Below are positions 41,596 through 56,897 of a stretch of DNA of 64,000 nucleotides, in pieces. The stretch comes from Microbacterium sp. LWO12-1.2. Its GTDB lineage: Bacteria > Actinomycetota > Actinomycetes > Actinomycetales > Microbacteriaceae. A model generated the notes under the pieces. The model ran no database searches. It saw nothing but the letters and a program-made list of their open reading frames with translations, and was not told the DNA's origin. Position numbers and translations under genes: made by a program. The stretch spans positions 496,001 through 560,000 of the forward strand of contig NZ_JBEGII010000001.1 of the NCBI RefSeq assembly GCF_040675875.1, read 5' to 3'. Each line of letters begins with the position of its first letter. Within the stretch, counting starts at the first letter, position 1.

Positions 41596-41634
41596 CGACG
41601 AGACCTTCTCCAAGTTCAGGCGCTCACTGCGCCG

Positions 41635-41686
41635 TGTGTCTACGTCAACATATTCGATGCACTGCTAGTGTGTCAACGTCAACACA
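41635..41686 (-). promoter_or_regulatory. galactoside operon promoter with two LacI operators
   Basis: Operator A TGTGTCTACGTCAACATA (41635-41652) and operator B TGTGTCAACGTCAACACA (41669-41686) are identical at 16 of 18 positions, 34 bases apart. On the minus strand, TTGACA (41671-41676, in B) and TATGTT (41647-41652, in A) form a -35/-10 pair with an 18-base spacer. A repressor would thus cover both boxes. A TAGTGT at 41666-41671 could be the -10 of the divergent lacI-type gene. Confidence 0.82.
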
Positions 41687-41703
41687 TGAATGGATGATGA
41701 CCC

Positions 41704-42741
41704 GTGACCTTGGAACCTTCGACAGAGCAGTCGCAGCGCCGCAGAGAGCCCTCGATGGAGGATGTCGCCCGCGAGGCCGGGGTGTCCGGCCAGACCGTGT
41801 CGCGCGTCGTGAACGCCCGCGGCTACGTCGGCGCCGCCACCAGGGAGCGGGTCGAAGAGGCCATGCACCGCCTCGGCTACCGCCCCAACAGTGCGGCCAG
41901 GGCGCTGCGATCGGGCCGATTCCGCACCTTCGGTGTCGTGATGTTCTCGTTCAGCTCCTACGGCAACCAGCGCACGCTCGACGCGATCGCCGTGCGGGCG
42001 GCGCAACTCGGATACGCCCTCACCCTCATCCCGGTGGAATCCAGCGCGAAGGACACCGTGGTGGGCGCGTTCCGCAGACTCGAAGAGCATGCGGTCGACG
42101 GCATCATCATCGTGATCGAGGCGCATCAGCTAGACGAGGCCGACATCGAGATCCCCAGCGGCCTCCCGGTCGTGTTCGTCGACTCGAACCGGACGGCCGA
42201 GCATCCCTTCGTCGACACCGACCAGGCGCAGGGTGCACGTCTGGCGACCGAGCACCTGCTCGACCTCGGACACGAGACCGTGTGGCATGTGACGGGCCCC
42301 GCGCAGTCGTACTCGGCCGAGCGTCGACGAGAGGCCTGGCAGTCGACGCTGGAGGCTGCGGGACGCCGAGTGCCGGAACCTCTGCCGGGCGACTGGAGCG
42401 CCGCTTCCGGATATCAGGCCGGCGTGACGCTCCGCGAGATCGACGGGGTGACCGCCGTCTTCGTCGCGAACGACCAGATGGCGATCGGCGTGCTGCGCGC
42501 ATTCCGCGAGGCCGGTATCGCCGTGCCGGATGATGTCAGCATCGTCGGCTTCGACGGCCTGCCCGATGCGGCGCAGCTCTGGCCGCCCCTGACCACAGTG
42601 CAGCAGCACCCGGAGCGTGTGGGTGCCTTCGCCGTGGACGCGCTCGTCGCCGAGCTCGACGAGGGGGAGCGGCTGCAGACCCCGCTCGTCGGTACCGAGC
42701 TCATCGTGCGCGCGAGCACCGCACCGCCGCGGCAGCGCTGA
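41704..42741 (+). CDS. LacI-family repressor of the galactoside operon
   Basis: A 345-residue LacI/GalR regulator: HTH and hinge at residues about 16-70 (MEDVAREAGVSGQTVSRVVNARGYV, SAARALRSGR), then a sugar-binding core with GIIIVIEAH, FVDSNRTA and DVSIVGFDGLPDA. The start is GTG at 41704; ATG at 41755 (MEDVAREAG) is possible but would leave no N-arm. It is divergent from the importer and GH35 operon, and the intergenic region carries two matching 18-bp operators on the operon promoter. Probable inducer is a galactoside. Confidence 0.9.
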   Translation: MTLEPSTEQSQRRREPSMEDVAREAGVSGQTVSRVVNARGYVGAATRERVEEAMHRLGYRPNSAARALRSGRFRTFGVVMFSFSSYGNQRTLDAIAVRAAQLGYALTLIPVESSAKDTVVGAFRRLEEHAVDGIIIVIEAHQLDEADIEIPSGLPVVFVDSNRTAEHPFVDTDQAQGARLATEHLLDLGHETVWHVTGPAQSYSAERRREAWQSTLEAAGRRVPEPLPGDWSAASGYQAGVTLREIDGVTAVFVANDQMAIGVLRAFREAGIAVPDDVSIVGFDGLPDAAQLWPPLTTVQQHPERVGAFAVDALVAELDEGERLQTPLVGTELIVRASTAPPRQR

Positions 42742-42837: not shown

Positions 42838-43698
42838 CTAGACGCCGGTGGCGCCGAGCCGTGACGAGAGCTCGCGCGCGGCGCGCGACACGAACACGCC
42901 GAGGGCGTCGAGGCGGTGTCCGATGCGCGCCTTGGGGGCGCTGACGTTCACCGCCGCGACGATGCGCCCCGTGAAGTCCGTGATCGGCGCAGACGCGGCG
43001 ACGACGCCGAACTCGAGCTCCTCGTCGGAGAGCGCGTAGCCCTGTTCGCGGATGCGGGAGAGCTCGGTGAGGAGACTGTCGAGGTCGGTGACAGGGGCGT
43101 TGCCTGGGGGTGGAGCATCGAGGACGGGGAACACTGAGGGATCCGCCTGGTCGAATCGGCCGACCAGTGGCTGGTCCTGTCCGTGATCCTCGTACCACCG
43201 GGCGAGAGACTCCTCGTCCCAGTCGCTCAGCAACGCTCGTCCCGAGGGGGTGCGCCACGCGGCGGTGGTGGTTCCGGCCCAGCCCGTCGTCCGCACATCG
43301 TGGGGGCTGAGCTCGCTCAACAGGGTGAGCACGTTGCCGCCGCGCAGCACGCACAGATGGCTGGTCTCCCTCGTCGACTGCACCAGTCGGCGCAGGATGC
43401 TGCGCGATGCATGTACCAGGGTGGTGCTGGCGGTGTGGGCGGCGAGTGCGTACAGCCGCGGGCCCAGCAGATAGCGCAGCGTGTCGTCGTCACGTTCGAC
43501 CAGGCCGCTCTCGGCGAGCGTCGCCAGGGTGCGTGACACCACCGCCTTGTCGCGCCCGGTGGATTGTGCGACCTGAGAGACGCCGAGACCTCCGGATCTC
43601 AGCGCCTCGTCGGTGCCGAGCAGTTCGAGGATCTCGATGTCGCGCCCCAGGCCGGAGGAGTTCCGGCGGGGAGCGGAGGGTGTCGTGGTCGTGTTCAC
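42838..43698 (-). CDS. IclR-family regulator
   Basis: A 286-residue IclR regulator: winged helix at about residues 15-85 (LGVSQVAQSTGRDKAVVSRTLATL) and a GAF-like effector domain (TSHLCVLRGGNVLTLLSEL, WRTPSGRALLSDW, GYALSDEELEFGVVAASAPI). It is divergent from the ten-gene transporter/dehydrogenase operon, whose promoter lies 44-71 bases away, so it is the probable regulator. The start is GTG at 43698 with TAGACT six bases upstream, so leaderless. Confidence 0.9.
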   Translation of the reverse strand: MNTTTTPSAPRRNSSGLGRDIEILELLGTDEALRSGGLGVSQVAQSTGRDKAVVSRTLATLAESGLVERDDDTLRYLLGPRLYALAAHTASTTLVHASRSILRRLVQSTRETSHLCVLRGGNVLTLLSELSPHDVRTTGWAGTTTAAWRTPSGRALLSDWDEESLARWYEDHGQDQPLVGRFDQADPSVFPVLDAPPPGNAPVTDLDSLLTELSRIREQGYALSDEELEFGVVAASAPITDFTGRIVAAVNVSAPKARIGHRLDALGVFVSRAARELSSRLGATGV

Positions 43699-43704
43699 GG
43701 GGTG

Positions 43705-43710
43705 AGTCTA
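43705..43710 (-). promoter_or_regulatory. -10 box of leaderless iclR-type gene
   Basis: TAGACT on the minus strand, six bases before the GTG at 43698. A TTGTGA further upstream is a weak -35 (19-base spacer). Confidence 0.5.
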
Positions 43711-43741
43711 ACCCGGTTCGTTGCCATAGTCACAACAGCCT

Positions 43742-43769
43742 TTGACGAAATGGTTACACCGGCTACGGT
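43742..43769 (+). promoter_or_regulatory. sigma-70 promoter of the OpuC/Fae operon
   Basis: TTGACG (43742-43747), 16-base spacer and TACGGT (43764-43769), about 45 bases before the first gene. This is one of the few classical -35/-10 pairs in the window; TTCGT and ACGAA flank the region (43717 and 43745) and may be part of an IclR site. Confidence 0.6.
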
Positions 43770-43813
43770 GATGACATCCCGGTACCGGCCTCAACGACGA
43801 GACAGGAGCCCTC

Positions 43814-44479
43814 TTGACCGGATTCAACTGGGAAGACCTCATGGTCTTCCTCACACGTCGCGCAGACGACATCCTCGAGCTGACCCGCGATCACCTCGTC
43901 GTCGTGCTCATCTCCGTCGCGCTGGCCGCGGCCATCGGGATCGGGCTGGGCATCCTCGTCCGCAACCGGCGCATCGCCCGGACGACGGTGCTGACCGCCG
44001 CCGCCGTCGCGATCACCATCCCGTCGCTCGCGCTCCTCGCCCTGCTCAGCCCGGTCCTCGGCCTCGGCTGGCTGCCGACCGTGGTCGCGCTCGTCTTCTA
44101 CTCGCTGCTCCCTGTCGTGCGCAACACGGTCGTCGGGCTCCGCGAGGTACCGGTCTCGGTGCTGGAATCCGCACGGGGAATGGGGCTCAGCCCGGCGCGG
44201 GTGCTGTTCACCGTGCAGCTGCCGATCGCCTGGCCGGTGATCATGACCGGCATCCGCGTGGCCGCGCAGCTCACGGTCGGCATCGCGGCCATCGCGGCCT
44301 ACGTCGCAGGCCCCGGTCTCGGCGAGTACATCTTCAAAGGCCTCTCCTCCCTGGGCTCCAAGAACGCCCTCAACTACGCGCTCACCGGCACCGTCGCCGT
44401 GATCATCCTCGCGCTCGTCCTCGACGGCATCCTCGTGCTCATCGCCCGCCTCACCACCTCAAGGGGTCTCCGTGCCTGA
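43814..44479 (+). CDS. osmolyte-type ABC permease (OpuCB/ProW-like)
   Basis: A 221-residue permease with five or six hydrophobic segments and the family's LLPVVRNTVVGLREVPVSVL and ESARGMGLSPARVLFTVQLP EAA-like loop. It belongs to the glycine betaine/choline/carnitine importer class. The start is TTG at 43814, set by AGGAG at 43804-43808; no ATG fits. It overlaps the ATPase gene by eight bases. First gene of the operon running to 53950. Confidence 0.92.
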   Translation: MTGFNWEDLMVFLTRRADDILELTRDHLVVVLISVALAAAIGIGLGILVRNRRIARTTVLTAAAVAITIPSLALLALLSPVLGLGWLPTVVALVFYSLLPVVRNTVVGLREVPVSVLESARGMGLSPARVLFTVQLPIAWPVIMTGIRVAAQLTVGIAAIAAYVAGPGLGEYIFKGLSSLGSKNALNYALTGTVAVIILALVLDGILVLIARLTTSRGLRA

Positions 44480-45503
44480 CATCACCACGAACACCGGCGT
44501 TCTCACCTCCCTCGCTTCGCAGCAGGGCGGCGTCGACATCGTCCTCGATCACATCACCAAGCAGTACCCGGGGCAGTCGACTCCTGCCGTCGAGGACTTC
44601 TCGATGCGCATCGAGCCCGGCGAGCTGGTCATGTTCGTCGGTCCCAGCGGCTGCGGCAAGACCACCACGATGAAGATGATCAACCGCATCATCGAGCCGT
44701 CGTCCGGATCCATCCGCATCAACGGCGACGACGTCCTGTCGCTCGACGGCAATGAGCTGCGCCGCCACATCGGCTACGTGATCCAGCAGATCGGCCTGTT
44801 CCCGCACTTCACGATCGCCGAGAACATCGCCGTGGTCCCCAAACTGCTGGGCTGGTCGAAGGCGCGCACCGCGGCACGTGTCGATGAACTGCTGAACACG
44901 GTGCAGCTCGACCCCGGCATCTTCGCCGACCGCTACCCCCGGCAGCTCTCCGGCGGCCAGCAGCAGCGGGTCGGCGTCGCCAGAGCTCTCGCCGCCGACC
45001 CGCCGGTGATGCTCATGGACGAGCCGTTCGGAGCGACCGACCCGATCACGCGCGAGAAGCTGCAGGCGGAGTTCCTTCGGCTGCAGGCCGACATCGGCAA
45101 GACGATCATCTTCGTCACGCACGACTTCGAAGAGGCGATCCGGATGGGCGATCGGATCGCGGTGCTGAGCGAGCGCAGCCGGATCGAGCAGTTCGACACC
45201 CCGGCACGCATCCTCGCGAACCCCGCCAACGAGTATGTGCGATCGTTCATCGGCGAGGGAGCGGCGCTGAAGCGGCTCGCCCTCATCCCCGTCAGCGGCG
45301 CGACCGTCGGCTCACCCGACTCCGACGCGCCCGAGGCCACGATCGGCGAGGAGACCTCACTGCGCGAAGCGCTCGACCTTCTGATCCTCACCGGCGCGCC
45401 GCGCATCAACGTCACGCGCGGAGGAGTCGTCGTCGGATCGATCGATCAGGCGGCGATCTCCGCAGCACTCGGAGCACCCGCGCGTCGCACGGAGGGCGAG
45501 TGA
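44472..45503 (+). CDS. osmolyte-type ABC ATPase (OpuCA/ProV-like)
   Basis: A 343-residue ATPase. Walker A GPSGCGKTTT (about residue 56), Q-loop VIQQIGLFPHFTIAENI, signature QLSGGQQQRVGVARAL, Walker B VMLMDEPFGATDP. C-terminal ~70 residues resemble a single CBS-like regulatory region (SLREALDLLILTGAPRINVTRGG), shorter than the two CBS repeats of OpuCA. GTG start at 44472. It couples with two permeases and a lipoprotein receptor. Likely ligand: a quaternary ammonium or similar small zwitterion; unproven. Confidence 0.92.
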   Translation: MPDITTNTGVLTSLASQQGGVDIVLDHITKQYPGQSTPAVEDFSMRIEPGELVMFVGPSGCGKTTTMKMINRIIEPSSGSIRINGDDVLSLDGNELRRHIGYVIQQIGLFPHFTIAENIAVVPKLLGWSKARTAARVDELLNTVQLDPGIFADRYPRQLSGGQQQRVGVARALAADPPVMLMDEPFGATDPITREKLQAEFLRLQADIGKTIIFVTHDFEEAIRMGDRIAVLSERSRIEQFDTPARILANPANEYVRSFIGEGAALKRLALIPVSGATVGSPDSDAPEATIGEETSLREALDLLILTGAPRINVTRGGVVVGSIDQAAISAALGAPARRTEGE

Positions 45504-46297
45504 CCATGCAGGCGCCCGATCTCGTGCCCTCTGCGACGACGGTCCTGCAGACGCAGCCGGCGGAGCGACGCGGCATGCCCGTGCTGCTGCGGCGCATGAT
45601 GCCGCTGATCGTCGTGGCGTCGGTACTGCTGATCACCTTCCTCTGGATCTCGACACTCGAGCTCGACTCGATCGAGCAGCGCACGCTCAACGTCGACTAC
45701 ATCACGGCACGTATCGGCGAGCATCTGATCCTGTCGATCACGGCATCGATCCTGGTGGCGGTGCTGGCCATCCCGGCCGGCATCGCGGTCAGCCGCTCCT
45801 CGTCACGTGTGTTCCGCGGAATCGTGATCGGCATCGCGAACATCGGGCAGGCGACACCGGCCATCGGCGTCGTGATCCTGCTCGCGATCGTCTGGCAGAC
45901 CGGCTTCACGACAGCTCTCGTCGCGCTCGTCATCTACTCCTTCCTCCCGGTGCTCCAGAACACGATCGCGGGTCTCGCCCAGGTCGACCCGAACATCCGG
46001 GAATCGGCGCGGGGCATGGGGATGACGTCCGGCCAGGTGCTGCGCCGGGTCGAGCTGCCGCTCGCCTCGCCCGTGATCCTCGCCGGACTCCGCACCGCAC
46101 TCGTCTTCGCCGTGGGCGTGGCGACCGTGGCGACCTTCATCAACGCCGGCGGCCTCGGCGACATGATCATCAACGGTCTGAAGCTGCAGCGCTATCCGGT
46201 TCTCATCGTCGGTGCGGTCCTCGTCGCCGCGATCGCGGTGCTCATCGACTGGGCGGCCAGCGTCGTGGAAGACATCGTCCGCCCCAAAGGCCTCTGA
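45500..46297 (+). CDS. osmolyte-type ABC permease, second (OpuCD-like)
   Basis: A 265-residue permease with a longer N-terminus than the first one and six hydrophobic segments; PNIRESARGMGMTSGQVLRRVELPLA is the loop facing the ATPase. GTG at 45500 overlaps the ATPase stop (GTGA); ATG at 45506 is an alternative with GGAGGG nine bases upstream. It pairs with the 43814 permease. Confidence 0.91.
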   Translation: MTMQAPDLVPSATTVLQTQPAERRGMPVLLRRMMPLIVVASVLLITFLWISTLELDSIEQRTLNVDYITARIGEHLILSITASILVAVLAIPAGIAVSRSSSRVFRGIVIGIANIGQATPAIGVVILLAIVWQTGFTTALVALVIYSFLPVLQNTIAGLAQVDPNIRESARGMGMTSGQVLRRVELPLASPVILAGLRTALVFAVGVATVATFINAGGLGDMIINGLKLQRYPVLIVGAVLVAAIAVLIDWAASVVEDIVRPKGL

Positions 46298-46336
46298 ATC
46301 ATCGACCCTCGCATTCCCTCCCGAAAGGAACCTGCA

Positions 46337-47278
46337 ATGACATCGCGCACCATCGCAACAGCAACACTCGCGGCACTCGCCGCCGGAGCACTCCTCCTCA
46401 CCGGCTGCACCTCCGGCGGTGCCGGCGGCTCCGGGGCGAAGGGCGACGAGCTCGAAGGCCTCACCGGCGAGATCGGTTCGAAGGACTTCTCCGAGCAGTA
46501 CATCCTCGCCTACATGACCGCCGAGCTGCTGAACGCCCATGGCGCCGACGTCGAGGCGAACACCAAGCTCGTCGGTTCAGCGAACGTGCGGCAGGCGCTG
46601 GAGAACGACCAGTTCCTGGGCTATTGGGAGTACACCGGCACGTCCTGGATCACGTACAACGGCAACACCACCCCGGTGCAGGGGGCCGAGGCGCAGTTCG
46701 AGGCGGTGAAGGAGGCCGACGCCGAGAACGGCATCGCGTGGCTCGACCCGGCGCCGTTCAACAACACCTACGCGTTCGCCATCCGTCAGAGCGAAGCCGA
46801 TGAGCTCGGAGTGAAGACGCTCAGCGACGTCGCGAAGCTCCCCAGCGCCGACCAGACGTTCTGCATCGAGAGCGAGTTCTCGACACGCGACGACGGATGG
46901 CCGGGACTGTCCGCGGCATACGGGTTCGACGCCCCCGCGGCCAACGTGACCATGCTCGACACGGGGGTGATCTACACTGCGACCCAGAAGGGCGACGACT
47001 GCAACTTCGGCGAGGTGTTCCAGACCGACGGCCGCATCCCTGCGCTCGATCTGGTCGTGATGGAGGACGACAAGGAGTTCTTCCCGAGCTATCAGGGCGG
47101 ATTCACGCTCAAGCAGAGCACGCTCGACGAGAACCCCGCGATCGCCGACGTGCTGGCCGAGCTCAGCCCGCTGCTCACGACCGAGGTCATGCAGACCCTC
47201 AACGCGAAGGTCGACGTCGACGGTGAAGACCCCGAAGACGTCGCGATCGAGTGGCTCGAGGACCAGGGGCTCATCTGA
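46337..47278 (+). CDS. osmolyte-type substrate-binding lipoprotein (OpuCC/ProX-like)
   Basis: A 313-residue OpuAC-fold lipoprotein: signal MTSRTIATATLAALAAGALL, lipobox LTGC, mature domain GEIGSKDFSEQYILAYM and LGYWEYTGTSW, as in choline and betaine receptors. GGFTLKQSTLDENPAIADVL is the C-terminal hinge region. The ATG at 46337 follows GAAAGGA. Its stop overlaps the Fae gene start (TGATG), so uptake and the next enzyme are tightly coupled. Confidence 0.92.
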   Translation: MTSRTIATATLAALAAGALLLTGCTSGGAGGSGAKGDELEGLTGEIGSKDFSEQYILAYMTAELLNAHGADVEANTKLVGSANVRQALENDQFLGYWEYTGTSWITYNGNTTPVQGAEAQFEAVKEADAENGIAWLDPAPFNNTYAFAIRQSEADELGVKTLSDVAKLPSADQTFCIESEFSTRDDGWPGLSAAYGFDAPAANVTMLDTGVIYTATQKGDDCNFGEVFQTDGRIPALDLVVMEDDKEFFPSYQGGFTLKQSTLDENPAIADVLAELSPLLTTEVMQTLNAKVDVDGEDPEDVAIEWLEDQGLI

Positions 47279-47802
47279 TGACCGCCGCTGTGCAACTCGG
47301 CGAGAGCTTCGTCGGCGACGGTGTCAACGCCGCGCACATCAACACCGTGCTCGGCCACCGCGACGGGCCGGCGGGGACGGCGTGGGCCACCGCCCTCGCG
47401 ACCCCCAGCCAGGGTCATGTGCCGTTCGTCGCGGTGCTGCGCCCATCGCTGCCGGTCAAGCCGATGACGCTGTTCGTCACCAAGGCCGCGCCCGCCGGTG
47501 ACGAACACGGACTCCTCATCTGGGGGCCCGCGCAGGCCGGGGTCGCCGCCGGCGTCGCGGATGCCGTCGCCGACGGGGTCATCCCGCGCGAAGCCGCCGA
47601 CACGCACGCGGTGATCGCCGCGGTGTGGGTCAATCCGGCCGCTGATGATGCCGAGACGGTCTACCGCAACAACCGTGAGGCGACGCGTACGGCGCTCGCA
47701 AACGGCGCGGCTTCGCTACCCGCTCTGGACGAGGTGCTCGCCGCGCGCGATCGCCCCACCAATCCCTTCTTCACCCCCCTCTCCACCACGAAGGACACGT
47801 AA
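47278..47802 (+). CDS. formaldehyde-activating enzyme (Fae) homolog
   Basis: A 174-residue protein of the Fae family, which condenses formaldehyde with tetrahydromethanopterin. The N-terminus QLGESFVGDGVNAAHINTVL contains the conserved catalytic His (His20); HVPFVAVLRPSLPVKPMTLF, WGPAQAGVAAGVADAVADGV and WVNPAADDAETVYRNNREAT are family blocks. Actinobacteria of this type are not expected to make methanopterin, so the partner or substrate must differ, or the protein is a carbonyl-binding relative. It sits between the binding protein (overlap of one base) and a hydroxyacid dehydrogenase (five-base gap), part of the catabolic operon. Confidence 0.88.
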   Translation: MTAAVQLGESFVGDGVNAAHINTVLGHRDGPAGTAWATALATPSQGHVPFVAVLRPSLPVKPMTLFVTKAAPAGDEHGLLIWGPAQAGVAAGVADAVADGVIPREAADTHAVIAAVWVNPAADDAETVYRNNREATRTALANGAASLPALDEVLAARDRPTNPFFTPLSTTKDT

Positions 47803-47807
47803 GACCC

Positions 47808-48749
47808 ATGAGTTCCCCCACGCCTCCGCTCGCCGAGGCCCTCCCCACCGTCGGGTTCATCGGACTCGGCAACATGGGATCCGGCATGACGAGGAACCTG
47901 CAGGCCGCAGGCTTCCCCCTCGTCGTCACGGATCTCCGCCGCGAGTCGGCAGAAGAGCTCATCGCCGGCGGTGCCAGGTGGGGGGAGACGCCACGGGAGG
48001 TCGCTGCCATGAGCGACCTCGTCATCACCATGCTGCCGACGCCGAAGCACGTGGCCGCGGTTGCGGCCGGCGCGGAGGGACTCATCGCGGGGCTGCCGGA
48101 CGGCGGCACCTGGGTCGACATGTCGACGTCGGTTCCTGATGTGCTCGAGGCCGTGCGCATCGAGCAGGCGGGTCGTGGACTGCACCTGCTCGATGCTCCC
48201 GTCAGCGGGATGTCGGTCGGGGCAGCCGCCGGCATGCTGCAGATCTTCATCGGGGGAGACGCCACCGATGTGGCCCGTCTGCGCCCGGTGTTCGAGGCGA
48301 TGGGCGACCCGGAGCGCATCCTCCACGTCGGGGGGCACGGCGCAGGATACGCCGTGAAGCTCATGATCAATCAGCTGTGGTTCTCGCACCTCGTGGCCAC
48401 CGCGGAGGTGCTCTCGGTCGGGGTCGCCGCAGGGGTGGACCTGGGGGTGCTGCGCGACGCGCTCATCGCCAGTCCGGCGAACAGCACATTCGTCTCCCGC
48501 GACGTGCTCTCGATCCTCGACAACGGTGACTACGACGAGGGATTCGCGATCGCGCTGGCGTGCAAGGACCTGGGTCTCTCCGTCGACCTGGCCCGCTCGG
48601 TCGGGATGCCGGTCGAGCTCTCCTCGCTCGTCGAGCAGATCTTCCGCCGGGCACGGGCGCAGTACGGCGATCATGCGGGCGAGATGACTCCCGTGCGCCT
48701 GTACGAAGAGCTCCTCGGGCGCGACCTTCGTCGGGAGGTGGCCGCATGA
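47808..48749 (+). CDS. beta-hydroxyacid dehydrogenase (3-hydroxyisobutyrate dehydrogenase-like)
   Basis: A 313-residue HIBADH-family enzyme. Rossmann motif FIGLGNMGSGMTRNL, VSTSVP-type DMSTSVPD, substrate loop DAPVSGMSVGAAAGML, and catalytic Lys in GYAVKLMINQL. It oxidises a 3-hydroxy acid or reduces a semialdehyde with NAD(P). The ATG at 47808 is five bases after the Fae stop; the stop overlaps the next start (ATGA). Substrate is probably a small hydroxyacid or semialdehyde in the same pathway. Confidence 0.9.
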   Translation: MSSPTPPLAEALPTVGFIGLGNMGSGMTRNLQAAGFPLVVTDLRRESAEELIAGGARWGETPREVAAMSDLVITMLPTPKHVAAVAAGAEGLIAGLPDGGTWVDMSTSVPDVLEAVRIEQAGRGLHLLDAPVSGMSVGAAAGMLQIFIGGDATDVARLRPVFEAMGDPERILHVGGHGAGYAVKLMINQLWFSHLVATAEVLSVGVAAGVDLGVLRDALIASPANSTFVSRDVLSILDNGDYDEGFAIALACKDLGLSVDLARSVGMPVELSSLVEQIFRRARAQYGDHAGEMTPVRLYEELLGRDLRREVAA

Positions 48750-50218
48750 CCGCCGCCCGTGAGGCCGAACTGCTCGCCTCCCTCCCGACCGGCCTCTTCA
48801 TCGCCGGGCAGTGGCGCGACGCGCATCCCGGGGCCACATTCCCGGTGCTCGACCCCGCCACCGGAGAGGTACTGGCGCACGTCGCAGACGCGTCGCCGGA
48901 AGACGGCGCCGCCGCCCTCGACGCGGCCGCGGCCGCGCAATCCGCGTGGGCGGCCACCGCTCCGCGTGAGCGCGGCGAGATCCTGCGCTGCGCCTTCGAA
49001 CTGGTCACCGCGCGGGCAGAGGACTTCGCGCTCGTCATGACGCTGGAGATGGGCAAGCCGCTGGCCGAGTCGCGTGCGGAGGTGGCCTACGGCGCCGAGT
49101 TCCTCCGCTGGTTCTCCGAGGAAGCGCCGCGCATCTCGGGGCGCTATGCCACCGCCCCTGACGGCCGCAACCGCCTACTCGTCGCCAAGCGACCGGTCGG
49201 TCCGAGCCTGCTCATCACGCCGTGGAACTTCCCGCTGGCGATGGCGACGCGCAAGATCGCGCCGGCGCTCGCCGCGGGCTGCACCTCGGTGCTGAAGCCC
49301 GCAGCCCTCACCCCGCTCACCGCGCTCCTGTTCGCGGAGGTGCTGCGTGAGGCCGGGGTTCCGGACGGCGTCGTCAACGTCATCCCCACCACCCGCGCCG
49401 GAGCGGTGACGGGTCCTCTCATCACCGACCCCCGGCTGCGCAAGCTGTCCTTCACCGGCTCCACCGAGGTCGGCCGTCGACTCATCGCCGATGCCGCGCA
49501 TCAGGTGCTCCGCGTATCTATGGAGCTCGGCGGAAATGCGCCGTTCCTGGTCTTCGAAGACGCCGATCTCGATGCGGCCGTGGAAGGTGCCCTGCTCGCC
49601 AAGCTCCGCAACGGCGGGGAGGCCTGTGTCGCGGCGAACCGCTTCCACGTGCACGAGAGCGTCGCCGAGGAGTTCACCGCGCGTCTGATCGAGCGCATGG
49701 CGGGCTACGTCACCGACCGGGGAACCGAGACCGCCTCCACGCTCGGCCCGCTCGTCGACGAGTCCACGCGCGAGAAGGTCGCCGAGCTCGTCGCCGGCGC
49801 CGTCGAAGACGGAGCGCGTGTCGCCCTCGGAGGCGTCGTGCCGTCCGGCCGTGGCTACTTCTATCCGGCCACGGTGCTGGTGGACGTGCCGCAGGACGCG
49901 CGCATCCTCCGCGAGGAGATCTTCGGGCCGGTCGCCCCCATCACGACGTTCCGCGATGAGGATGAGGCGGTACGGCTGGCGAACGCCAGCGAGTACGGAC
50001 TCGTCTGCTTCGCCTACACCCGTGATCTCAACCGCGCGCTGCGTCTCGCGGAACGACTGGAGACGGGGATGCTCGGCCTGAACACCGGACTCGTCTCCAA
50101 CCCGGCCGCGCCGTTCGGTGGCGTGAAGCAGTCCGGGATCGGTCGGGAGGGCGGATTCGAGGGGATCGACGAATACCTCGAGACGACCTACATCGGCATC
50201 TCCGATCCTTTCGCCTGA
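48746..50218 (+). CDS. NAD(P)-dependent aldehyde dehydrogenase (GabD-like)
   Basis: A 490-residue ALDH resembling succinate-semialdehyde dehydrogenases. Catalytic Glu in SMELGGNAPFLVF, Cys in NGGEACVAANRFHVHE, and NFPLAMATRKIAPALAAG for nucleotide binding. The ATG at 48746 overlaps the previous stop (ATGA). It should oxidise an aldehyde or semialdehyde produced in the operon. The C-terminal EGIDEYLETTYIGI is typical for GabD. Confidence 0.93.
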   Translation: MTAAREAELLASLPTGLFIAGQWRDAHPGATFPVLDPATGEVLAHVADASPEDGAAALDAAAAAQSAWAATAPRERGEILRCAFELVTARAEDFALVMTLEMGKPLAESRAEVAYGAEFLRWFSEEAPRISGRYATAPDGRNRLLVAKRPVGPSLLITPWNFPLAMATRKIAPALAAGCTSVLKPAALTPLTALLFAEVLREAGVPDGVVNVIPTTRAGAVTGPLITDPRLRKLSFTGSTEVGRRLIADAAHQVLRVSMELGGNAPFLVFEDADLDAAVEGALLAKLRNGGEACVAANRFHVHESVAEEFTARLIERMAGYVTDRGTETASTLGPLVDESTREKVAELVAGAVEDGARVALGGVVPSGRGYFYPATVLVDVPQDARILREEIFGPVAPITTFRDEDEAVRLANASEYGLVCFAYTRDLNRALRLAERLETGMLGLNTGLVSNPAAPFGGVKQSGIGREGGFEGIDEYLETTYIGISDPFA

Positions 50219-50245
50219 ACCCCGCACGTTCTGAAGGAGCCTGCA

Positions 50246-51022
50246 TTGCACATCACTGATTTCTCCCTCGACCTCTTCTCCCTGCGCGGGAGAAGAGCGA
50301 TCGTCACGGGTGGGAACACCGGACTGGGGCAGGCGTTCACGCTCGCCCTCGCCAAGGCGGGAGCGGACGTCTTCGTGCCGACGCTCTTCGACGACGCCGG
50401 CGAGACCGCCGAACTCGTGCGAGCGGAAGGTGGCCGCTACGAGGAGCAGATGATCGACATCACTGCATCCGGAGCGCCCGCCCTGGCGGTCGACGCGTGC
50501 GTGGCGGCCCTGGGCGGAGTGGACATCCTCGTCAACTCCGCGGGCATCAGCCGCATCGCCGGAGTCACGGAGTTCGGCCGAGCGGAGTGGGACCCGATGG
50601 TCGCGGTCAACCTCACCGCGGCGTTCGACATGGCACACGAGGTGGCGAAGCGGATGATCCCGCAGGGCACGGGCAAGATCATCAACATCGCCTCGCTGTT
50701 CTCCTTCCTCGGCGGCCTCGGGTCACCTGCCTACGCCGCGACCAAGCACGGCATCGTCGGACTGACGCGTGCCTACGCGGATGAGCTGGGGGGGACCGGC
50801 ATCCAGGTCAATGCGATCGCGCCGGGCTACTTCAAGACCCGCATCACCGAGGAATCCCGCTCCGACCCGGCGGTCAACGGCCGCATCATCGCGCACACCC
50901 CCGCTGGGCGGTGGGGCGACGTCGCCGACCTCATGGGCGCCACCGTGTTCCTCGCCAGCCCCGCATCCGACTTCGTCAACGGTCACGTGCTGACCGTCGA
51001 CGGCGGCTATCTCGTGCGCTGA
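50246..51022 (+). CDS. KduD-like short-chain dehydrogenase
   Basis: A 258-residue SDR close to 2-deoxy-D-gluconate 3-dehydrogenase (KduD): FSLRGRRAIVTGGNTGLGQA, NSAGISR, IASLFSFLGG and YAATK. The start is TTG at 50246, because AAGGAG (50233-50238) precedes it at seven bases and no ATG fits the family N-terminus. It follows the ALDH by 27 bases. It would oxidise a sugar-acid or polyol hydroxyl. Confidence 0.9.
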   Translation: MHITDFSLDLFSLRGRRAIVTGGNTGLGQAFTLALAKAGADVFVPTLFDDAGETAELVRAEGGRYEEQMIDITASGAPALAVDACVAALGGVDILVNSAGISRIAGVTEFGRAEWDPMVAVNLTAAFDMAHEVAKRMIPQGTGKIINIASLFSFLGGLGSPAYAATKHGIVGLTRAYADELGGTGIQVNAIAPGYFKTRITEESRSDPAVNGRIIAHTPAGRWGDVADLMGATVFLASPASDFVNGHVLTVDGGYLVR

Positions 51023-51065
51023 CCCGCAGCGCTTCCCATCCACGAACGAACAGGACATCTCTCCC

Positions 51066-52550
51066 ATGGTTGCTTCACGATCCGCCCTCACCCGCGCGGA
51101 GATCGTCGACCGACTCCGCGATCTGATCGGCGACGATCAGGTCGAGACCGACGCTCGCGAACTGCGCGAGGCGAGCGTCGACCGCTTCAAGAAGTACACG
51201 TCGGTGCACGGGATCTTCGACGGACCGATCCCTGCGGCGATCGCCTACGCCCGCTCCACGGACGATGTCTCCGCGATCCTCGCCTTCGCCGAGGAGAACC
51301 TGATCAACGTCGTGCCCCGCACGGGCAGGACCGCGACCGAGGGAGGTCTGGAGACCATCGTCGACGACACCATCGTGCTCGATGGCTCGCGCATGGACGC
51401 GATCCTCGAGATCGACCCGATCGACATGATGGTCACCGCACAGTGCGGGGTCCCTCTTCAGGTGCTTGAAGATACCCTGCGTGCGCAGGGTCTGACGACA
51501 GGCCATTCCCCGCAGTCCAAGCCGCTCGCACAGATGGGCGGGCTGGTCGCGACGCGGTCCATCGGCCAGTTCTCCACGCTCTACGGCGGCATCGAGGACA
51601 TGGTCGTCGGCCTCGAGGCGGTGCTCCCCGGCGGACGCGTCACCCGGATCAAGAATGTCCCCCGTCGTGCCGCAGGTCCCGACATCCGGCACATCGTGAT
51701 CGGCAACGAGGGTGCCCTCTGCGTGATCACCGAGGTGACGGTCAAGGTGTTCCGGTACCAGCCGGAGAACAACCGCTTCCTCGGATACCTCGTCGAATCG
51801 CTGCCCGCGGGCGTCGCTGGACTGCGGGAGATCATCGTCGCGGGGTATCACCCGTCGGTCGCCAGGGCGTACTCCGAAGAGGATGCCGCGCAGCACTTCT
51901 CGCACTTCGCAGATGGCAAGGCCGTCGTCGTGGTCGTGGCGGAGGGGCCTCAGGGGATCGCCGACGCGACAGCCGACGGTGTGGAGGCGATCTTCGCCGG
52001 GATCCCGCATGAGAAGGTCGACCCTGCGCTGATCGAGCACTGGTTCGACAACCTCAACTGGGGTCAGGAGAAGATCGACGCCGAGAAGCGGGAGATGCGG
52101 GAGAAATCGCATCTGGGGTACACCACCGAGGTCTCGATCGACTGGTCCGGTGTCGCCGAGCTCTTCGAATCCGTGATGCGCCGGGCGCGGAACGAGTTCC
52201 CGCACGCGGCCGATCTCACGATGCTCGGCGCGCACTCGTCGCACAGCTATCAGACGGGGACCAACCTGTACTTCGTGTACGACTACGACATCTCGTGCGA
52301 GCCGCGCGAAGAGATCACCGAGTACCACGAGCCGCTCAACGCGATCGTGGTCGAGGAGGCGCTGCGGCTCGGCGGGTCGATGGTCCACCACCACGGCATC
52401 GGGAAGTACCGCACGCCCTGGACCCTCGAGGAGCACGGCAGCGCCTTCGAGCTGCTACGGGTGCTGAAGGACGGCATCGACCCCCACGGCATCATGAACC
52501 GCGGCACGATCTACCCGCTGGACATAGCGGAGACGGCGTCACCGGCGTGA
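51066..52550 (+). CDS. FAD-linked oxidase (AGPS/glycolate oxidase family)
   Basis: A 494-residue FAD_binding_4 plus FAD-oxidase_C enzyme. The FAD loop VVPRTGRTATEGG, NIQPLQVLE-like QCGVPLQVLED, GHSPQSKPLAQMGGLVATRSIGQ, and the C-terminal MVHHHGIGKYRTPW match the alkyl-dihydroxyacetonephosphate synthase/D-lactate dehydrogenase group. AGPS enzymes use flavin for a non-redox ether bond exchange; other members oxidise 2-hydroxyacids. The HHHGIGKYR motif is the AGPS active-site tyrosine/His block. Strong spacing to neighbours; GTGA overlap with the kinase downstream. Confidence 0.88.
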   Translation: MVASRSALTRAEIVDRLRDLIGDDQVETDARELREASVDRFKKYTSVHGIFDGPIPAAIAYARSTDDVSAILAFAEENLINVVPRTGRTATEGGLETIVDDTIVLDGSRMDAILEIDPIDMMVTAQCGVPLQVLEDTLRAQGLTTGHSPQSKPLAQMGGLVATRSIGQFSTLYGGIEDMVVGLEAVLPGGRVTRIKNVPRRAAGPDIRHIVIGNEGALCVITEVTVKVFRYQPENNRFLGYLVESLPAGVAGLREIIVAGYHPSVARAYSEEDAAQHFSHFADGKAVVVVVAEGPQGIADATADGVEAIFAGIPHEKVDPALIEHWFDNLNWGQEKIDAEKREMREKSHLGYTTEVSIDWSGVAELFESVMRRARNEFPHAADLTMLGAHSSHSYQTGTNLYFVYDYDISCEPREEITEYHEPLNAIVVEEALRLGGSMVHHHGIGKYRTPWTLEEHGSAFELLRVLKDGIDPHGIMNRGTIYPLDIAETASPA

Positions 52551-53950
52551 CAGCGACGGCGGGCGGCTACGTCGTCGCCATCGACAACGGATCTCAGAGC
52601 ACGAAGGTGCTGATCGTAGACGGTGACGGGGTCGTGCACGCCGATGCGCGGGTCCCGCTCCGTCCGTATGCGTCTCCTTCGCCCGGCCGCTGGGAGCACC
52701 CGGAAGACGATCTTTGGGACTCTGTGGTCGACGCGGTCCGTGAGGCCCTCGGCCGCTTCGAGGGAGATCTGTCGGAGATCCGCGGGGTCGGTCTGTGCAC
52801 GATCCGCTTCTGCCGCGCGGTGCTGCGTCGGGATGGGTCTCTTGCGCAACCGGTGATGAGCTGGATGGACGAGCGGCTCCCGCGCGCGTACGAGCGAGAA
52901 GTCGACGACGCGGCGTACGTCACGACGTCCTCCGGATACATCGGACATCGGCTCACCGGAGAACGTCGTGACGCGGCCGGGAACTACCAGGGCATGTGGC
53001 CGATCGACACCCAACGGTGGGCGTGGAGCGAGGATGCCACGGAGTATGCCCGCACCGGCATGGATCCGGGGATGCTGTTCGAGCTCGTCGCACCGGGGCA
53101 GCCACTGGGCCGGGTGACCGCGGCGGCCGCGGAGGTGACCGGGCTGCCCGCGGGCATCCCAGTGATCGCCACCTCGAACGACAAGGCCGTGGAGGCGCTC
53201 GGGGCAGGGCTCCGGGATCAGGGTGACGTGCTGCTGTCCTTGGGCACCTACGTGGCCACCATGACCCCGGGCGCCGGACCGTTCGCGCCCCACTCCGATG
53301 TGTGGACGAATTTCGCCGCCGAACCGGGTTCCTATCTGTACGAGAGTGCGGGCGTCAGACGGGGGATGTGGACGGTGAGCTGGTTCCGTGATCTCCTCTC
53401 CGCCTCAGGTCCGGTGTCGGAGGAGCAGTTGAATCTCGGCGCCGAAGGGGTCCCGCCCGGTGCGGGGGGACTGATCGTCGCCCTCGACTGGCTCGCTCCG
53501 GCAGACGAACCTTGGCGTCGCGGTGCGATCATCGGCTTCGACGGCACTCAGGGACGCTTCCACATCTACCGGGCGATCCTCGAAGCTCTCGCGATCGAGA
53601 CCGAAGCCGCGGATTCACGTGCGCGCCGCGCACTCGGGGTGGAACGCGAGGCGTTGATCGTCACCGGAGGCGGAAGTGCTTCGGGGCCGATGCTCGAGAT
53701 CCTCGCCGCGGTGTACGGTGTGCCCGTGCGCACCCCCCTGGTGCGAGACGCGGCGGGCATGGGAGCCGCGATCTGTGCCGCAGTCGGCATCGGAATGCAC
53801 GCGGGGTTCGACGAGGCCGTGACCGCCATGGTCGGCGTCGGCGCGCGTGTGGACGTGCCGAATGACCTCCAGGCGGCGTACCGGGATGTTGTCACGACGT
53901 ACGCGGGCGTCGTTCCCGGCATCCGTGCACTGTTCGCTCCTCCCGGCTGA
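52547..53950 (+). CDS. FGGY-family carbohydrate kinase
   Basis: A 467-residue ASKHA-fold kinase: YVVAIDNGSQSTKVLIVDGD (phosphate-1), ATSNDKAVEALGAGLRDQGD, LLSLGTYVATMT and GGGSASGPMLEILAAVYG. FGGY enzymes phosphorylate polyols or ketoses such as glycerol, xylulose or erythritol. GTG at 52547 overlaps the preceding stop (GTGA); it is the last gene of the operon, followed by an inverted repeat. Its pairing with an AGPS-like oxidase points to a phosphorylated polyol or ether-linked glycerol-like intermediate. Confidence 0.88.
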   Translation: MTATAGGYVVAIDNGSQSTKVLIVDGDGVVHADARVPLRPYASPSPGRWEHPEDDLWDSVVDAVREALGRFEGDLSEIRGVGLCTIRFCRAVLRRDGSLAQPVMSWMDERLPRAYEREVDDAAYVTTSSGYIGHRLTGERRDAAGNYQGMWPIDTQRWAWSEDATEYARTGMDPGMLFELVAPGQPLGRVTAAAAEVTGLPAGIPVIATSNDKAVEALGAGLRDQGDVLLSLGTYVATMTPGAGPFAPHSDVWTNFAAEPGSYLYESAGVRRGMWTVSWFRDLLSASGPVSEEQLNLGAEGVPPGAGGLIVALDWLAPADEPWRRGAIIGFDGTQGRFHIYRAILEALAIETEAADSRARRALGVEREALIVTGGGSASGPMLEILAAVYGVPVRTPLVRDAAGMGAAICAAVGIGMHAGFDEAVTAMVGVGARVDVPNDLQAAYRDVVTTYAGVVPGIRALFAPPG

Positions 53951-54496: not shown

Positions 54497-54970
54497 TCAG
54501 CCGCGCAGCTCCCGCACGAGCAGTGCGGTGCGGAGGGCCGCGTCGGCAGCCTCTGCGCCCTTGTCCTCCTTGGACCCCTCGAGTCCGGCGCGGTCGAGTC
54601 CCTGCTTCTCATCGTCGAGGGTGAGTACGCCGAACCCGACGGGCTTGCCGGCGTCCAGGGCGACACGGGTGAGGCCGTCGGTGGTGGCGGCCGACACGTA
54701 CTCGAAGTGCGGAGTCCCTCCGCGGATGATCACGCCCAGCGCGACGACCGCGTCGGCTCCGCCGGCGAAGGCCGCCTGCGCGGCGAGAGCGAGCTCGAAC
54801 GACCCGGGCACCCTCACCAGCCGGTGCGTGGCCTGCGCCTCGGTCAGCACGCGCTCCGCGCCCGCGATGAGACCGTCGGTGATGACGTCGTGCCAGGTGC
54901 CGGCGACGATGACGACATGCAGTCCCCGCCCGTCGATGTTGCCGGTTGCGGGTGCTCCTGCGCCGCTCAT
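54497..54970 (-). CDS. ribH: 6,7-dimethyl-8-ribityllumazine synthase
   Basis: A 157-residue lumazine synthase, the penultimate step of riboflavin synthesis. VVIVAGTWHDVITDGLIAGA, VRVPGSFELALAAQ, ALGVIIRGGTPHFEYVS and FGVLTLDDEKQGLDRAG are canonical; it assembles as a pentamer or capsid. The ATG at 54970 overlaps the ribBA stop (ATGA). Last gene of ribD-ribE-ribBA-ribH. Confidence 0.97.
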   Translation of the reverse strand: MSGAGAPATGNIDGRGLHVVIVAGTWHDVITDGLIAGAERVLTEAQATHRLVRVPGSFELALAAQAAFAGGADAVVALGVIIRGGTPHFEYVSAATTDGLTRVALDAGKPVGFGVLTLDDEKQGLDRAGLEGSKEDKGAEAADAALRTALLVRELRG

Positions 54971-56232
54971 GCGTGGTCCTTTCCTTCTGCGAGAGCCTCT
55001 GCGAGCTCGTCCGCACCGATGATGTGACCCATGCGGTCACGCTTGGTCTCGAGGTACTGATGATTGTTGGGTCCGACGCCGACGATCAGCGGGACCTGCT
55101 CGACGACGTCCAGACCGAGTTCGCGCAGCTGCTTCACCTTGTCGGTGTTGTTCGTGAGCAGACGCACCTTCGATACGCCGAGGTCGGTGAGGATCCCTGC
55201 CGCTGCCGCATACTCCCGCGCGTCTGCCGGGAGTCCGAGTGCGAGGTTCGCGTCGACCGTGTCGAGACCCTCCTCCTGCAGGCTGTACGCGCGCAGCTTG
55301 TTGATCAGACCGATGCCGCGCCCCTCGTGGCCGCGCATGTAGATGACGATCCCGCCGTCCTTCTCGATCGCGTCCAGTGCGGCGTCGAGCTGAGGCCCGC
55401 ACTCGCACTTGAGCGAACCGAAGGCCTCTCCGGTGAGGCACTCTGAGTGCACGCGCACGAGTGCCGTCTCGCCGAGCTCGCCGGAGACGACCGCGATGTG
55501 GTCGGTGCCGGTCACCCGGTCCTTGTATGCCAGGAAGCGGAAGGTCCCGTGCGTCGTCGGCACCGTCGCGTCGGCGTGCAGGCTGACCCGTCGGTGCACC
55601 CGCGGTCCGGACTCGTCCTGGGGATCGATCTCGTTGAGGTGCGCGATGAGCTGCTCGATCGTGATGACCGGCACCCCGTCGCGCGCGCCGAGCTCGATCA
55701 GCCCAGGCAGGCGCATCATGCTGCCGTCCTCTGCGACGACCTCGGCGATCGCGCCGACCGGCTGCAGCCCGGCGAGACGCATCAGGTCGACGGCGGCCTC
55801 GGTGTGACCGCTGCGCTCGCGCACGCCGCCGTCGACGGCGCGGAGCGGCAGCACATGGCCGGGGCGGATGATGCTGAGCGCCGTGGACTGCGGGTTCGCC
55901 AGCACGTTGAGCGTGTGGGCGCGGTCGTGGGCGCTGATGCCGGTCGTGACGCCTTCCGCGGCGTCGACGCTCACGGTGTACGCGGTGGAGCGGGCATCCT
56001 CGCTGGCGGCGACCATGGGCGGAAGGTTCAGGTTGTCGGCGAGGTCGGTCGGCATCGGTGCGCAGATGAATCCGGACGACCAGCGCACGGTCCAGGCGAC
56101 CCACTCCGGCGTCGCGAGCTCGGCCGACAGGATGACGTCGCCCTCGTTCTCCCGGTTCTCGTCGTCGGCGACCAGCACGGGGCGGCCGGCGCGCAGCGCT
56201 TCCAGCGCCTCGGGGATCGTGGAAAGGCTCAT
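54967..56232 (-). CDS. ribBA: bifunctional DHBP synthase / GTP cyclohydrolase II
   Basis: A 421-residue fusion. The N-half (1-200) is 3,4-dihydroxy-2-butanone-4-phosphate synthase (DDENRENEGD, RPGHVLPLRA, SGHTEAAVDLMRLAG); the C-half (210-421) is GTP cyclohydrolase II (HSECLTGEAFGSLKCECG zinc site, MRGHEGRGIGL, NTDKVKQL). It makes both precursors of riboflavin. The ATG at 56232 overlaps the ribE stop by four bases. Confidence 0.97.
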   Translation of the reverse strand: MSLSTIPEALEALRAGRPVLVADDENRENEGDVILSAELATPEWVAWTVRWSSGFICAPMPTDLADNLNLPPMVAASEDARSTAYTVSVDAAEGVTTGISAHDRAHTLNVLANPQSTALSIIRPGHVLPLRAVDGGVRERSGHTEAAVDLMRLAGLQPVGAIAEVVAEDGSMMRLPGLIELGARDGVPVITIEQLIAHLNEIDPQDESGPRVHRRVSLHADATVPTTHGTFRFLAYKDRVTGTDHIAVVSGELGETALVRVHSECLTGEAFGSLKCECGPQLDAALDAIEKDGGIVIYMRGHEGRGIGLINKLRAYSLQEEGLDTVDANLALGLPADAREYAAAAGILTDLGVSKVRLLTNNTDKVKQLRELGLDVVEQVPLIVGVGPNNHQYLETKRDRMGHIIGADELAEALAEGKDHA

Positions 56233-56897
56233 CGCGAGCCTCCTTCCGGTGCGGCGCGGAACGCGAGCAGGCGCTCGACGTGCCGGGCGAGGATGTCTGT
56301 CTCGAGGTTGACGCGGTCGCCGACAGCGCGCGAGCCGAGCGTGGTGGCGGCGAGTGTCTCCGGGATCAGCGACACTTCGAACCAGTGCGCGAGGGACCCC
56401 GCACCTTCGTTCTGGGTCCCTGAGCTTGTCGAAGGGCTCACGGCGCTCACGGCGCTCACGGTGAGCGAGGTGCCGTCGACGGAGATCGAGCCCTTGTCGA
56501 CCACGAGTGGCGCGAGGTCTGCGGGGAGGCTGATCCGCAGCACACTCCACTGCGCGCCGGGGCGCACCTCGAGCACGTCGCCGGTGCCGTCGACGTGACC
56601 CTGCACGATGTGTCCGCCCAGGCGGGCGCCGACCGGCATGGCCTTCTCGATGTTCACGCGCGTTCCGACGGTGGCGCTGCCGAGCGCCGCCACGTCGAGC
56701 GTCTGCTTCATCACGTCGGCGTCGAAGGTGTCCGGCGTGGAGCCGACCACAGTCAGACACACGCCCGAGACCGCGATGGACTCGCCGTGAACCGCATCCG
56801 CGGCCGCACGGGGTGCACGCACGGTGAGTCGCCACCCGTCACCGGCGGATGCGATGGCGGTGATCTCGCCGATCTCCTCGATGATTCCCGTGAACAT
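56229..56897 (-). CDS. ribE: riboflavin synthase alpha chain, with repeat-derived insertion
   Basis: A 222-residue riboflavin synthase (MFTGIIEEIGEI; lumazine-binding repeats, GHIVQGHVDGTG; second domain IPETLAATTLGSRAVGDRVNLE). At residues about 154-162 the sequence PSTSSGTQN comes from a copy of the CTGGGTCCCTGAGCCTGTCGAAG repeat family inserted in frame in the linker or loop of domain 2 (after VSAVSAV). The protein is therefore slightly longer than usual (200-215). The ATG at 56897 overlaps the ribD stop by one base (TGATG). Confidence 0.95.
   Translation of the reverse strand: MFTGIIEEIGEITAIASAGDGWRLTVRAPRAAADAVHGESIAVSGVCLTVVGSTPDTFDADVMKQTLDVAALGSATVGTRVNIEKAMPVGARLGGHIVQGHVDGTGDVLEVRPGAQWSVLRISLPADLAPLVVDKGSISVDGTSLTVSAVSAVSPSTSSGTQNEGAGSLAHWFEVSLIPETLAATTLGSRAVGDRVNLETDILARHVERLLAFRAAPEGGSR
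56412..56436. repeat. dispersed CTGGGTCCCTGAGCTTGTCGAAGGG repeat inside ribE
   Basis: One copy, 24 of 25 positions as in the last unit at 11791-11815. It lies in frame inside ribE and encodes a Ser/Thr/Gly-rich loop. Confidence 0.85.

Follow-up and report, generated by a model that had tools for sequence, protein, structure and literature searches.

Results

The operon and its gene products

The stretch of DNA analysed here (the window) comprises 64,000 nucleotides of the 4.1-Mb genome of Microbacterium sp. LWO12-1.2 and contains an operon in which a homolog of the formaldehyde-activating enzyme (Fae) is combined with an OpuC-type ATP-binding cassette (ABC) importer and several oxidoreductases. 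Ten same-strand genes (43814-53950) encode, in this order, a permease, an ATPase, a second permease, a substrate-binding protein, the Fae-like protein, a 3-hydroxyisobutyrate-dehydrogenase (HIBADH)-like enzyme, an aldehyde dehydrogenase (ALDH) of the succinate-semialdehyde dehydrogenase (SSADH) type, a KduD-like short-chain dehydrogenase/reductase (SDR), a flavin adenine dinucleotide (FAD) protein resembling alkylglycerone-phosphate synthase (AGPS) and an FGGY kinase, and an IclR gene (42838-43698) faces the opposite way (Table 1). The successive gaps are -8, -4, +39, -1, +5, -4, +27, +43 and -13 bases. The co-directional operon under a divergent IclR protein that was originally predicted is confirmed for every gene and coordinate, with gaps from -13 to +43, as is the overlap of the fae start with the binding-protein stop: the ATG (47278) and the TGA (47276-47278) have one base in common.

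Table 1. Operon genes, divergent regulator gene and intervening region, in window coordinates
Feature	Coordinates	Strand	Basis
IclR-family regulator, divergent	42838..43698	-	PF01614 3.2e-25, PF09339; relative at >=40% identity in 51/69 Fae loci
Divergent intergenic region, 115 bases, presumed promoters	43699..43813	.	Sequence and open reading frame coordinates; promoter role inferred
OpuC/ProW-type ABC permease 1	43814..44479	+	PF00528 2.9e-22
ProV-type ABC ATPase	44472..45503	+	TIGR01186 3.9e-93, 312 bits (cut-off 326.6)
OpuC/ProW-type ABC permease 2	45500..46297	+	PF00528 1.8e-25
OpuAC-type substrate-binding lipoprotein	46337..47278	+	PF04069 9.3e-58
Fae-like protein, non-canonical clade, 174 aa from ATG 47278	47278..47802	+	PF08714 3.8e-53; TIGR03126 above cut-off; clade tree and residue tables
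HIBADH-like beta-hydroxyacid dehydrogenase	47808..48749	+	PF03446 9e-44, PF14833; PDB 3obb 1.2e-42
SSADH-type aldehyde dehydrogenase	48746..50218	+	TIGR01780 2.4e-162, 541 bits (cut-off 646)
KduD-like SDR, YgcW-type	50246..51022	+	PRK06935 7.4e-91, below cut-off
AGPS-like FAD oxidoreductase, YgcU-type; R267, Y402, H441-443	51066..52550	+	AGPS 4bby 1.7e-45
FGGY kinase, YgcE-type	52538..53950	+	PF00370, PF02782

Two permeases, a ProV-like ATPase and an OpuAC binding protein within one operon identify the importer as OpuC-type, with the ATPase and permeases scoring below the NCBIfam cut-offs. Solved relatives of the binding protein include choline, betaine, carnitine and ergothioneine binders, and its K49, Y99, R184 and Y213 are present in 62/62, and Y145 in 59/62, distinct homologous stretches. 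The ligand is probably zwitterionic; the Arg presumably binds a carboxylate, a role that we take from work on ProX. The set resembles the OpuC and ProU importers (ProX, OpuCC, OsmF, EgtUC) in its components and in the conserved aromatics and Arg of its binding protein, and differs from them in sharing an operon with catabolic enzymes. Betaine-type transport recurs among the related clusters described below, as OpuC at the window and in Enterococcus and as a betaine/choline/carnitine transporter (BCCT) in Vibrio.

A divergent clade of Fae-like proteins

The Fae-like protein, the single Fae found in its genome, scores 180 bits against PF08714 (cut-off 27) and 160 bits against TIGR03126 (cut-off 118). 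Its nearest named relatives include proteins of Microbacterium species, and in a tree it groups with Burkholderia, Caballeronia and Ensifer proteins at 47-52% identity, apart from canonical Fae. The canonical set consisted of six Fae, four encoded beside mch and two from a Methylocystis plasmid without mch in the fetched stretch; a further residue comparison used five of the six together with the solved Methylorubrum extorquens protein (1y5y). On Azoarcus, Paraburkholderia, Azospirillum and Phyllobacterium plasmids, canonical-type fae genes adjoin mch and other methanopterin genes.

His21 (numbering from codon 47275), which we take to be catalytic in Fae, is kept in all 80 distinct clade sequences, from which a divergent second Caballeronia homolog, gapped at the His, was set aside. 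Ten residues are changed relative to canonical Fae: Asp23Asn, Asn44Pro, Phe48His, Gln78His, Phe83Trp, His88Ala, Phe118Trp, His120Asn, Trp121Pro and His163Asn. Asn23, Pro44, His78, Trp83, Ala88, Trp118 and Asn163 each occur in 80/80 clade sequences, Asn120 and Pro121 each in 79/80, and His48 in 77/80; the canonical set, which is small, has His and one Arg at position 88 and is invariant at the other nine places. The gained Trp83 and Trp118 are compatible with an aromatic cage that could hold an ammonium group. The window protein shares with canonical Fae (PF08714; PDB 1y5y and 1y60, M. extorquens) a full-length family match, the invariant His and a similar length, but differs from it in gene neighbourhood, in about ten diagnostic residues and in the genomic markers considered below, and it represents a separate subfamily of Fae whose role, within what is probably an operon for betaine-type catabolism, is likely to be new.

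Two plasmids carry more than one Fae homolog. The Methylocystis plasmid has two tandem fae genes followed by a hypothetical gene as long as the second (L109:2977-4757), and the set-aside Caballeronia homolog, on a long branch, lies beside toxic-anion-resistance-type genes (L114:69-602).

Formaldehyde and methanopterin markers

Is the Fae-like protein concerned with formaldehyde? Our search for methanopterin genes covered two markers, methenyltetrahydromethanopterin cyclohydrolase (MCH) and beta-ribofuranosylaminobenzene 5'-phosphate (beta-RFAP) synthase. Both are missing from 18/18 Fae-positive genomes of the genus, while archaeal positive controls were detected, which agrees with the original view that no methanopterin pathway is visible and leaves the formaldehyde reading without support. 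Family-model scans recognised no demethylase or other formaldehyde-releasing enzyme among the operon genes. We consider a formaldehyde-related function of this Fae unlikely. As for ordinary formaldehyde detoxification, the best match to mycothiol-dependent formaldehyde dehydrogenase in the genome of the window reaches 285 bits, under the curated cut-off of 513. EfgA was considered as a Fae relative and dropped, being described as a DUF336 protein and not a Fae (PMC8153426).

Two modules with separable distributions

Fae occurs in 18/198 sampled genomes of the genus and the flavoprotein (E <= 1e-100) in 20/198, among them all 18 Fae-positive ones. This association is not due to chance (Fisher p = 1.2e-23, for which related genomes are non-independent draws). 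An in-frame stop was flagged in four of the 20 flavoprotein matches (G078, G123, G141, G026). The two genomes with flavoprotein and no Fae, G026 and G141, have the IclR, importer, SDR, FAD and kinase genes, and fae, hibadh and aldh were not found in the 19.9 kb fetched from these loci. A Fae-free context of the kind that the original prediction named as refuting it exists therefore in 2/20 genomes. Because the HIBADH-like and ALDH genes are missing along with fae, the role of Fae is tied to them, and the operon consists of two modules, one of importer, SDR, FAD protein and kinase and the other of Fae, HIBADH-like enzyme and SSADH-type ALDH.

The gene set survives rearrangement within the genus, where blocks of importer and enzyme genes have changed place or orientation (L028, L029, L031-L033, L037) with all components that fit the fetched stretch present, and it extends across families of Actinobacteria. 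When each species was represented by a single genome, in a collection partly overlapping the 198-genome sample, scanning yielded 69 Fae loci, several cut by contig ends. Counted at >=40% identity (>=38% for permeases and binding protein) and with no coverage limit, IclR, ATPase, second permease and binding protein are found in 51 loci each, the first permease in 50, HIBADH in 54, ALDH in 53, SDR in 27, FAD protein in 26 and kinase in 25. HIBADH and/or ALDH accompany Fae in 60/69 loci; its other partners are an aldo-keto reductase (AKR) or a zinc (Zn-ADH) or iron (Fe-ADH) alcohol dehydrogenase. An enolase-superfamily gene is present in at least 23/69 loci, 22 without the FAD gene and one with it, and an Fe-ADH in at least 18/69, 16 of them together with the enolase gene; these counts are lower bounds from a simple gene caller, and one example of each was checked by family models. 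Neither the FAD nor the enolase gene is seen in 21/69 loci, some of them cut by contig ends. The locus with both, from a Microbacterium genome, has the trio of SDR, FAD protein and kinase as well as the enolase-superfamily gene beside importer genes (L086:4215-5321). Four loci (L094-L097; Nanopelagicales, Micrococcales and unclassified) have an IclR-like gene (31-34% identical), fae and a HIBADH-like gene (43-45%).

The SDR-FAD-kinase trio and the ygc genes of Escherichia coli

The SDR is 64% identical to an Ilyobacter SDR that is itself 76% identical to E. coli YgcW, the FAD protein is 62% identical to YgcU, and the kinase is 40-56% identical to the kinases of six SDR-FAD-kinase clusters; the three genes thus form a YgcW-YgcU-YgcE module. 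In E. coli K-12 (2884000-2910000; L121), four genes annotated as putative have counterparts in these clusters: ygcS is related to the carrier, ygcU to the FAD protein, ygcW to the SDR and ygcE to the kinase. The last three are of the same types as at the window, and YgcS is 55% identical to a major facilitator superfamily (MFS) carrier beside the fae-AKR-ALDH genes of Caballeronia. The E. coli stretch differs in having flavoprotein genes and an antiterminator instead of fae, hibadh, aldh or a lyase gene. The Enterococcus trio adjoins an ABC importer for osmoprotectants and has an antiterminator responsive to glycerol-3-phosphate nearby; such GlpP-type antiterminators are found near the trio in both Streptomyces clavuligerus and Enterococcus, and E. 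coli ygcP is 47% identical to the latter. MFS carriers adjoin the trio in Ilyobacter and Priestia, and a BCCT carrier does so in Vibrio. Among the literature matches listed, many of them to unrelated words, no title assigns a pathway to the ygc genes. Two papers report that ygcS overexpression increased the output of nicotinamide mononucleotide (PMC8601175) and that D-serine repression was not relieved by ygcU deletion (PMC13012123).

AGPS (4bby, 2uuu) is the best solved relative of the FAD protein, as had been predicted. The positions of the Tyr, Arg and triple His, to which we ascribe catalytic roles in AGPS, are retained as Y402, R267 and H441-443 (the Tyr and the triple His by direct comparison with 4bby, the Arg according to the search alignment) and are invariant in 47/47 homologous sequences (40 distinct), YgcU included. 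The GlcD score is 134.7 bits (cut-off 567.9), and the GlcD-like 3pm9 differs at three of four comparable AGPS positions (H, A, E, H versus Y, H, H, H in the FAD protein). Unlike AGPS, the FAD protein is bacterial, has 494 residues and belongs to a presumed catabolic operon.

An aspartase-superfamily lyase in place of Fae

Sister clusters in Ensifer, Vibrio and Priestia have a lyase of the aspartate ammonia-lyase/fumarase superfamily and an ALDH of the betaine-aldehyde dehydrogenase (BADH) type where Fae clusters have Fae and an SSADH-type ALDH. The lyase, which belongs to another protein family than Fae, takes its place beside a common importer or alcohol-oxidising enzyme. Two Ensifer adhaerens plasmids have all four genes of one importer in common (73-76% identity): L020 encodes AKR, Fae and an SSADH-type ALDH 60% identical to that of Caballeronia, whereas L122 encodes a lyase, an ALDH 69% identical to that of Vibrio and an AKR. 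In Caballeronia, fae, AKR, SSADH and MFS genes are accompanied by a divergent IclR gene; in Vibrio, an AKR with 73% identity to that of Caballeronia is found together with a lyase and another ALDH, and Fae was not found in the 21 kb fetched. Priestia has a lyase, a carrier 60% identical to that of Caballeronia and a Zn-ADH 46% identical to a Fae-adjacent one of Leucobacter.

Vibrio-type AKR genes (E <= 1e-100) occur in 12 plasmid records, eight of them with an adjoining clade fae (six Caballeronia, two Burkholderia) and four with a lyase gene within 3 kb (three closely related Ensifer, one Vibrio). No lyase match over 200 aa was seen in any fetched Fae locus, a search that covered the flanks of fae. 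For the lyases of Priestia and Vibrio the highest-scoring model is aspartate ammonia-lyase, and for their ALDHs it is betaine-aldehyde dehydrogenase, all below cut-offs; the two Fae-linked ALDHs scanned are both SSADH-best, that of the window below the cut-off and a Burkholderia one above it. The lyase-ALDH pairs of the Priestia (L118:582-4701) and Vibrio (L119:15258-18148) plasmids lie near YgcWUE-type genes. On a Peribacillus plasmid (L123:11998-14556), an aspartase-type lyase and a BCCT carrier, both shortened, are fused in a single open frame; it probably arose by deletion between neighbours, so that the two genes are likely to have been adjacent before.

Discussion

What might the operon import and degrade? 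We consider, with a probability of roughly 0.4, that its substrate is a betaine with a glycerol-like moiety attached, the leading candidates being glyceryl-N,N,N-trimethylhomoserine, which is the deacylated headgroup of the betaine lipid diacylglyceryl-N,N,N-trimethylhomoserine (DGTS), or homoserine betaine, and that the Fae-like protein eliminates the amine. Betaine-type importers and BADH-type ALDHs point to a quaternary ammonium compound. Aspartase-superfamily lyases call for a substituted succinate; if alcohol and aldehyde oxidation come first, such a lyase would receive X-CH(COO-)-CH2-COO- derived from X-CH(COO-)-CH2-CH2OH, and with trimethylammonium as X the latter is homoserine betaine. 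The GlpP-type regulators and the AGPS-like residues in turn suggest a glycerol ether of homoserine betaine, the DGTS headgroup, and the change of ALDH type suggests that Fae clusters release the amine ahead of aldehyde oxidation.

We infer the substrate, the order of steps and every chemical reaction of the following scheme. The zwitterion would be taken up by the OpuC-type importer, and its glycerol ether opened by the trio: the kinase may phosphorylate the glycerol part, the SDR may oxidise the middle hydroxyl, and the flavoprotein could then free the alcohol, either by reversed AGPS-like covalent catalysis or by oxidation at the ether carbon. The HIBADH-like enzyme would convert HO-CH2-CH2-CH(N+Me3)-COO- to the semialdehyde, from which the Fae-like protein might eliminate trimethylamine to give 4-oxo-2-butenoate, the presumed substrate that the SSADH-type ALDH would oxidise to fumarate. 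In the sister clusters the BADH-type ALDH would act first and the lyase would then yield fumarate and amine. The enolase-type variant may oxidise the glycerol end to a carboxylate and beta-eliminate the alkoxy group to pyruvate, and free homoserine betaine is perhaps used at L094-L097. The specific proposals that the Fae-fold clade is an amine lyase on a betaine semialdehyde, a non-orthologous replacement of aspartase-type lyases, and that the YgcWUE-type trio, that of E. coli included, opens a betaine-lipid glycerol ether are tentative, and we regard them as doubtful. Among the literature titles listed, none concerned bacterial catabolism of the DGTS headgroup.

Several observations weigh against this explanation. 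The SDR is KduD-like and with the xylulokinase-like kinase appears sugar-like; the kinase scores 141 bits as xylulokinase (cut-off 380) and 77 as glycerol kinase (cut-off 590), far below both cut-offs. In Enterococcus and Ilyobacter, YgcU-type genes adjoin genes for electron-transfer flavoproteins, and two flavoprotein genes, ygcQ and ygcR, occupy this place in E. coli, which suggests a redox reaction and not redox-neutral AGPS chemistry. Importers at some Fae loci are not betaine-specific: an ABC system whose binding protein is of the family-5 type is present in Ensifer and near an Acidimicrobiia locus, and a GntP permease lies near one Burkholderia Fae locus. Of the five conserved binding-protein residues, Enterococcus retains Y99, R184 and Y213 and lacks K49 and Y145. 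In S. clavuligerus the modules are separated, each at its own site on a single plasmid, and the Fae of this species is intermediate at positions 48, 120 and 121, with canonical-like Phe48 and Trp121. At >=40% identity, the four Actinobacteria loci L094-L097, from metagenome-assembled genomes, show only fae and hibadh of the listed partners, and none is seen at L090, L093, L100 or L101. Between the two Ensifer plasmids the AKRs share just 46% identity, and we know of no precedent for an amine lyase of the Fae fold.

The original prediction, offered tentatively, was that an N- or O-methylated, or otherwise formaldehyde-releasing, substrate is imported and that Fae traps the formaldehyde. Its placing of Fae in the pathway of an imported substrate is supported, and this substrate is probably zwitterionic; the trapping of formaldehyde by Fae lacks support. 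Release of formaldehyde from a methylated substrate, and its capture by Fae on folate or a different carrier, would suit the family score above the curated cut-off, the retained invariant His and the possibility that demethylation of a trimethylated betaine gives formaldehyde. Yet no demethylase is recognised in the operon, the two methanopterin markers are missing from all 18 Fae genomes, about ten canonical residues are substituted, and the protein that stands in for Fae is an aspartase-type lyase and not a C1 enzyme, so we hold such trapping to be distinctly unlikely. Coincidence, in which the operon merely houses an importer for osmolytes next to a polyol pathway that has nothing to do with it and no common substrate exists, seems very improbable: the pieces are in two places in S. 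clavuligerus, but the set is kept through the rearrangements within the genus and across families of Actinobacteria, and importer and trio occur together in Enterococcus too.

Less remote are two readings that keep a common substrate and alter the chemistry. The second module could act on another aldehyde, with the Fae-like protein as a hydratase, isomerase, sensor or scavenger guarding against a semialdehyde and the amine lost later or elsewhere. The prevalence of HIBADH and/or ALDH, and of AKR, Zn-ADH or Fe-ADH as other partners, fits this; the appearance of a lyase where Fae is missing, and the accompanying switch in ALDH type, would be left unexplained, and we think it rather unlikely. Fairly improbable, too, is that some other zwitterion linked to glycerol or a sugar is imported, for instance the headgroup of another betaine lipid, an N-glycosyl amino acid or a sugar-amine osmolyte, with other chemistry after import. 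The KduD-like SDR, the xylulokinase-like FGGY kinase and the sugar-acid-dehydratase-like enolase protein suit sugar-type substrates equally, but the lyase implies a substituted succinate and with it a 4-hydroxy-2-amino-butanoate skeleton, and the GlpP-type regulators indicate glycerol phosphate. We also set aside sulfoquinovose and 2,3-dihydroxypropane-1-sulfonate pathways (161 bits with the sulfolactaldehyde reductase model, cut-off 348) and schemes for D-apiose, pantoate and carnitine, since not one of them accounts for the glycerol-type trio together with the aspartase-type lyase. Homarine catabolism was also considered, with nothing useful among the literature matches listed.

Proteins of the clade are named formaldehyde-activating enzyme in public records, yet both methanopterin markers are missing from 18/18 hosts tested. 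Should the clade act on betaines, these annotations mislead, and a Fae-like protein in place of an ordinary amine-removing enzyme hints at an unrecognised job for the Fae family. The comparison also links E. coli ygcS, ygcU, ygcW and ygcE to a substrate of this kind, and a standard laboratory strain thus becomes available for testing what they do. As for the candidate substrate, a 2026 study reports homoserine betaine at reef and seagrass sites and names Trichodesmium as the organism of its first characterisation, with microbial uptake not directly tested in that study (PMC13403184).

Finally, an ABC permease gene (minus strand) and a LacI-family regulator gene (plus strand) at 40678-42741, upstream of the IclR gene, probably belong to a separate system; a LacI gene adjoins the operon also in L023, L024, L030, L035 and L038. 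Downstream, the minus-strand translations at 54497-56835 resemble what we take to be riboflavin synthesis genes (ribH-like, ribBA-like).

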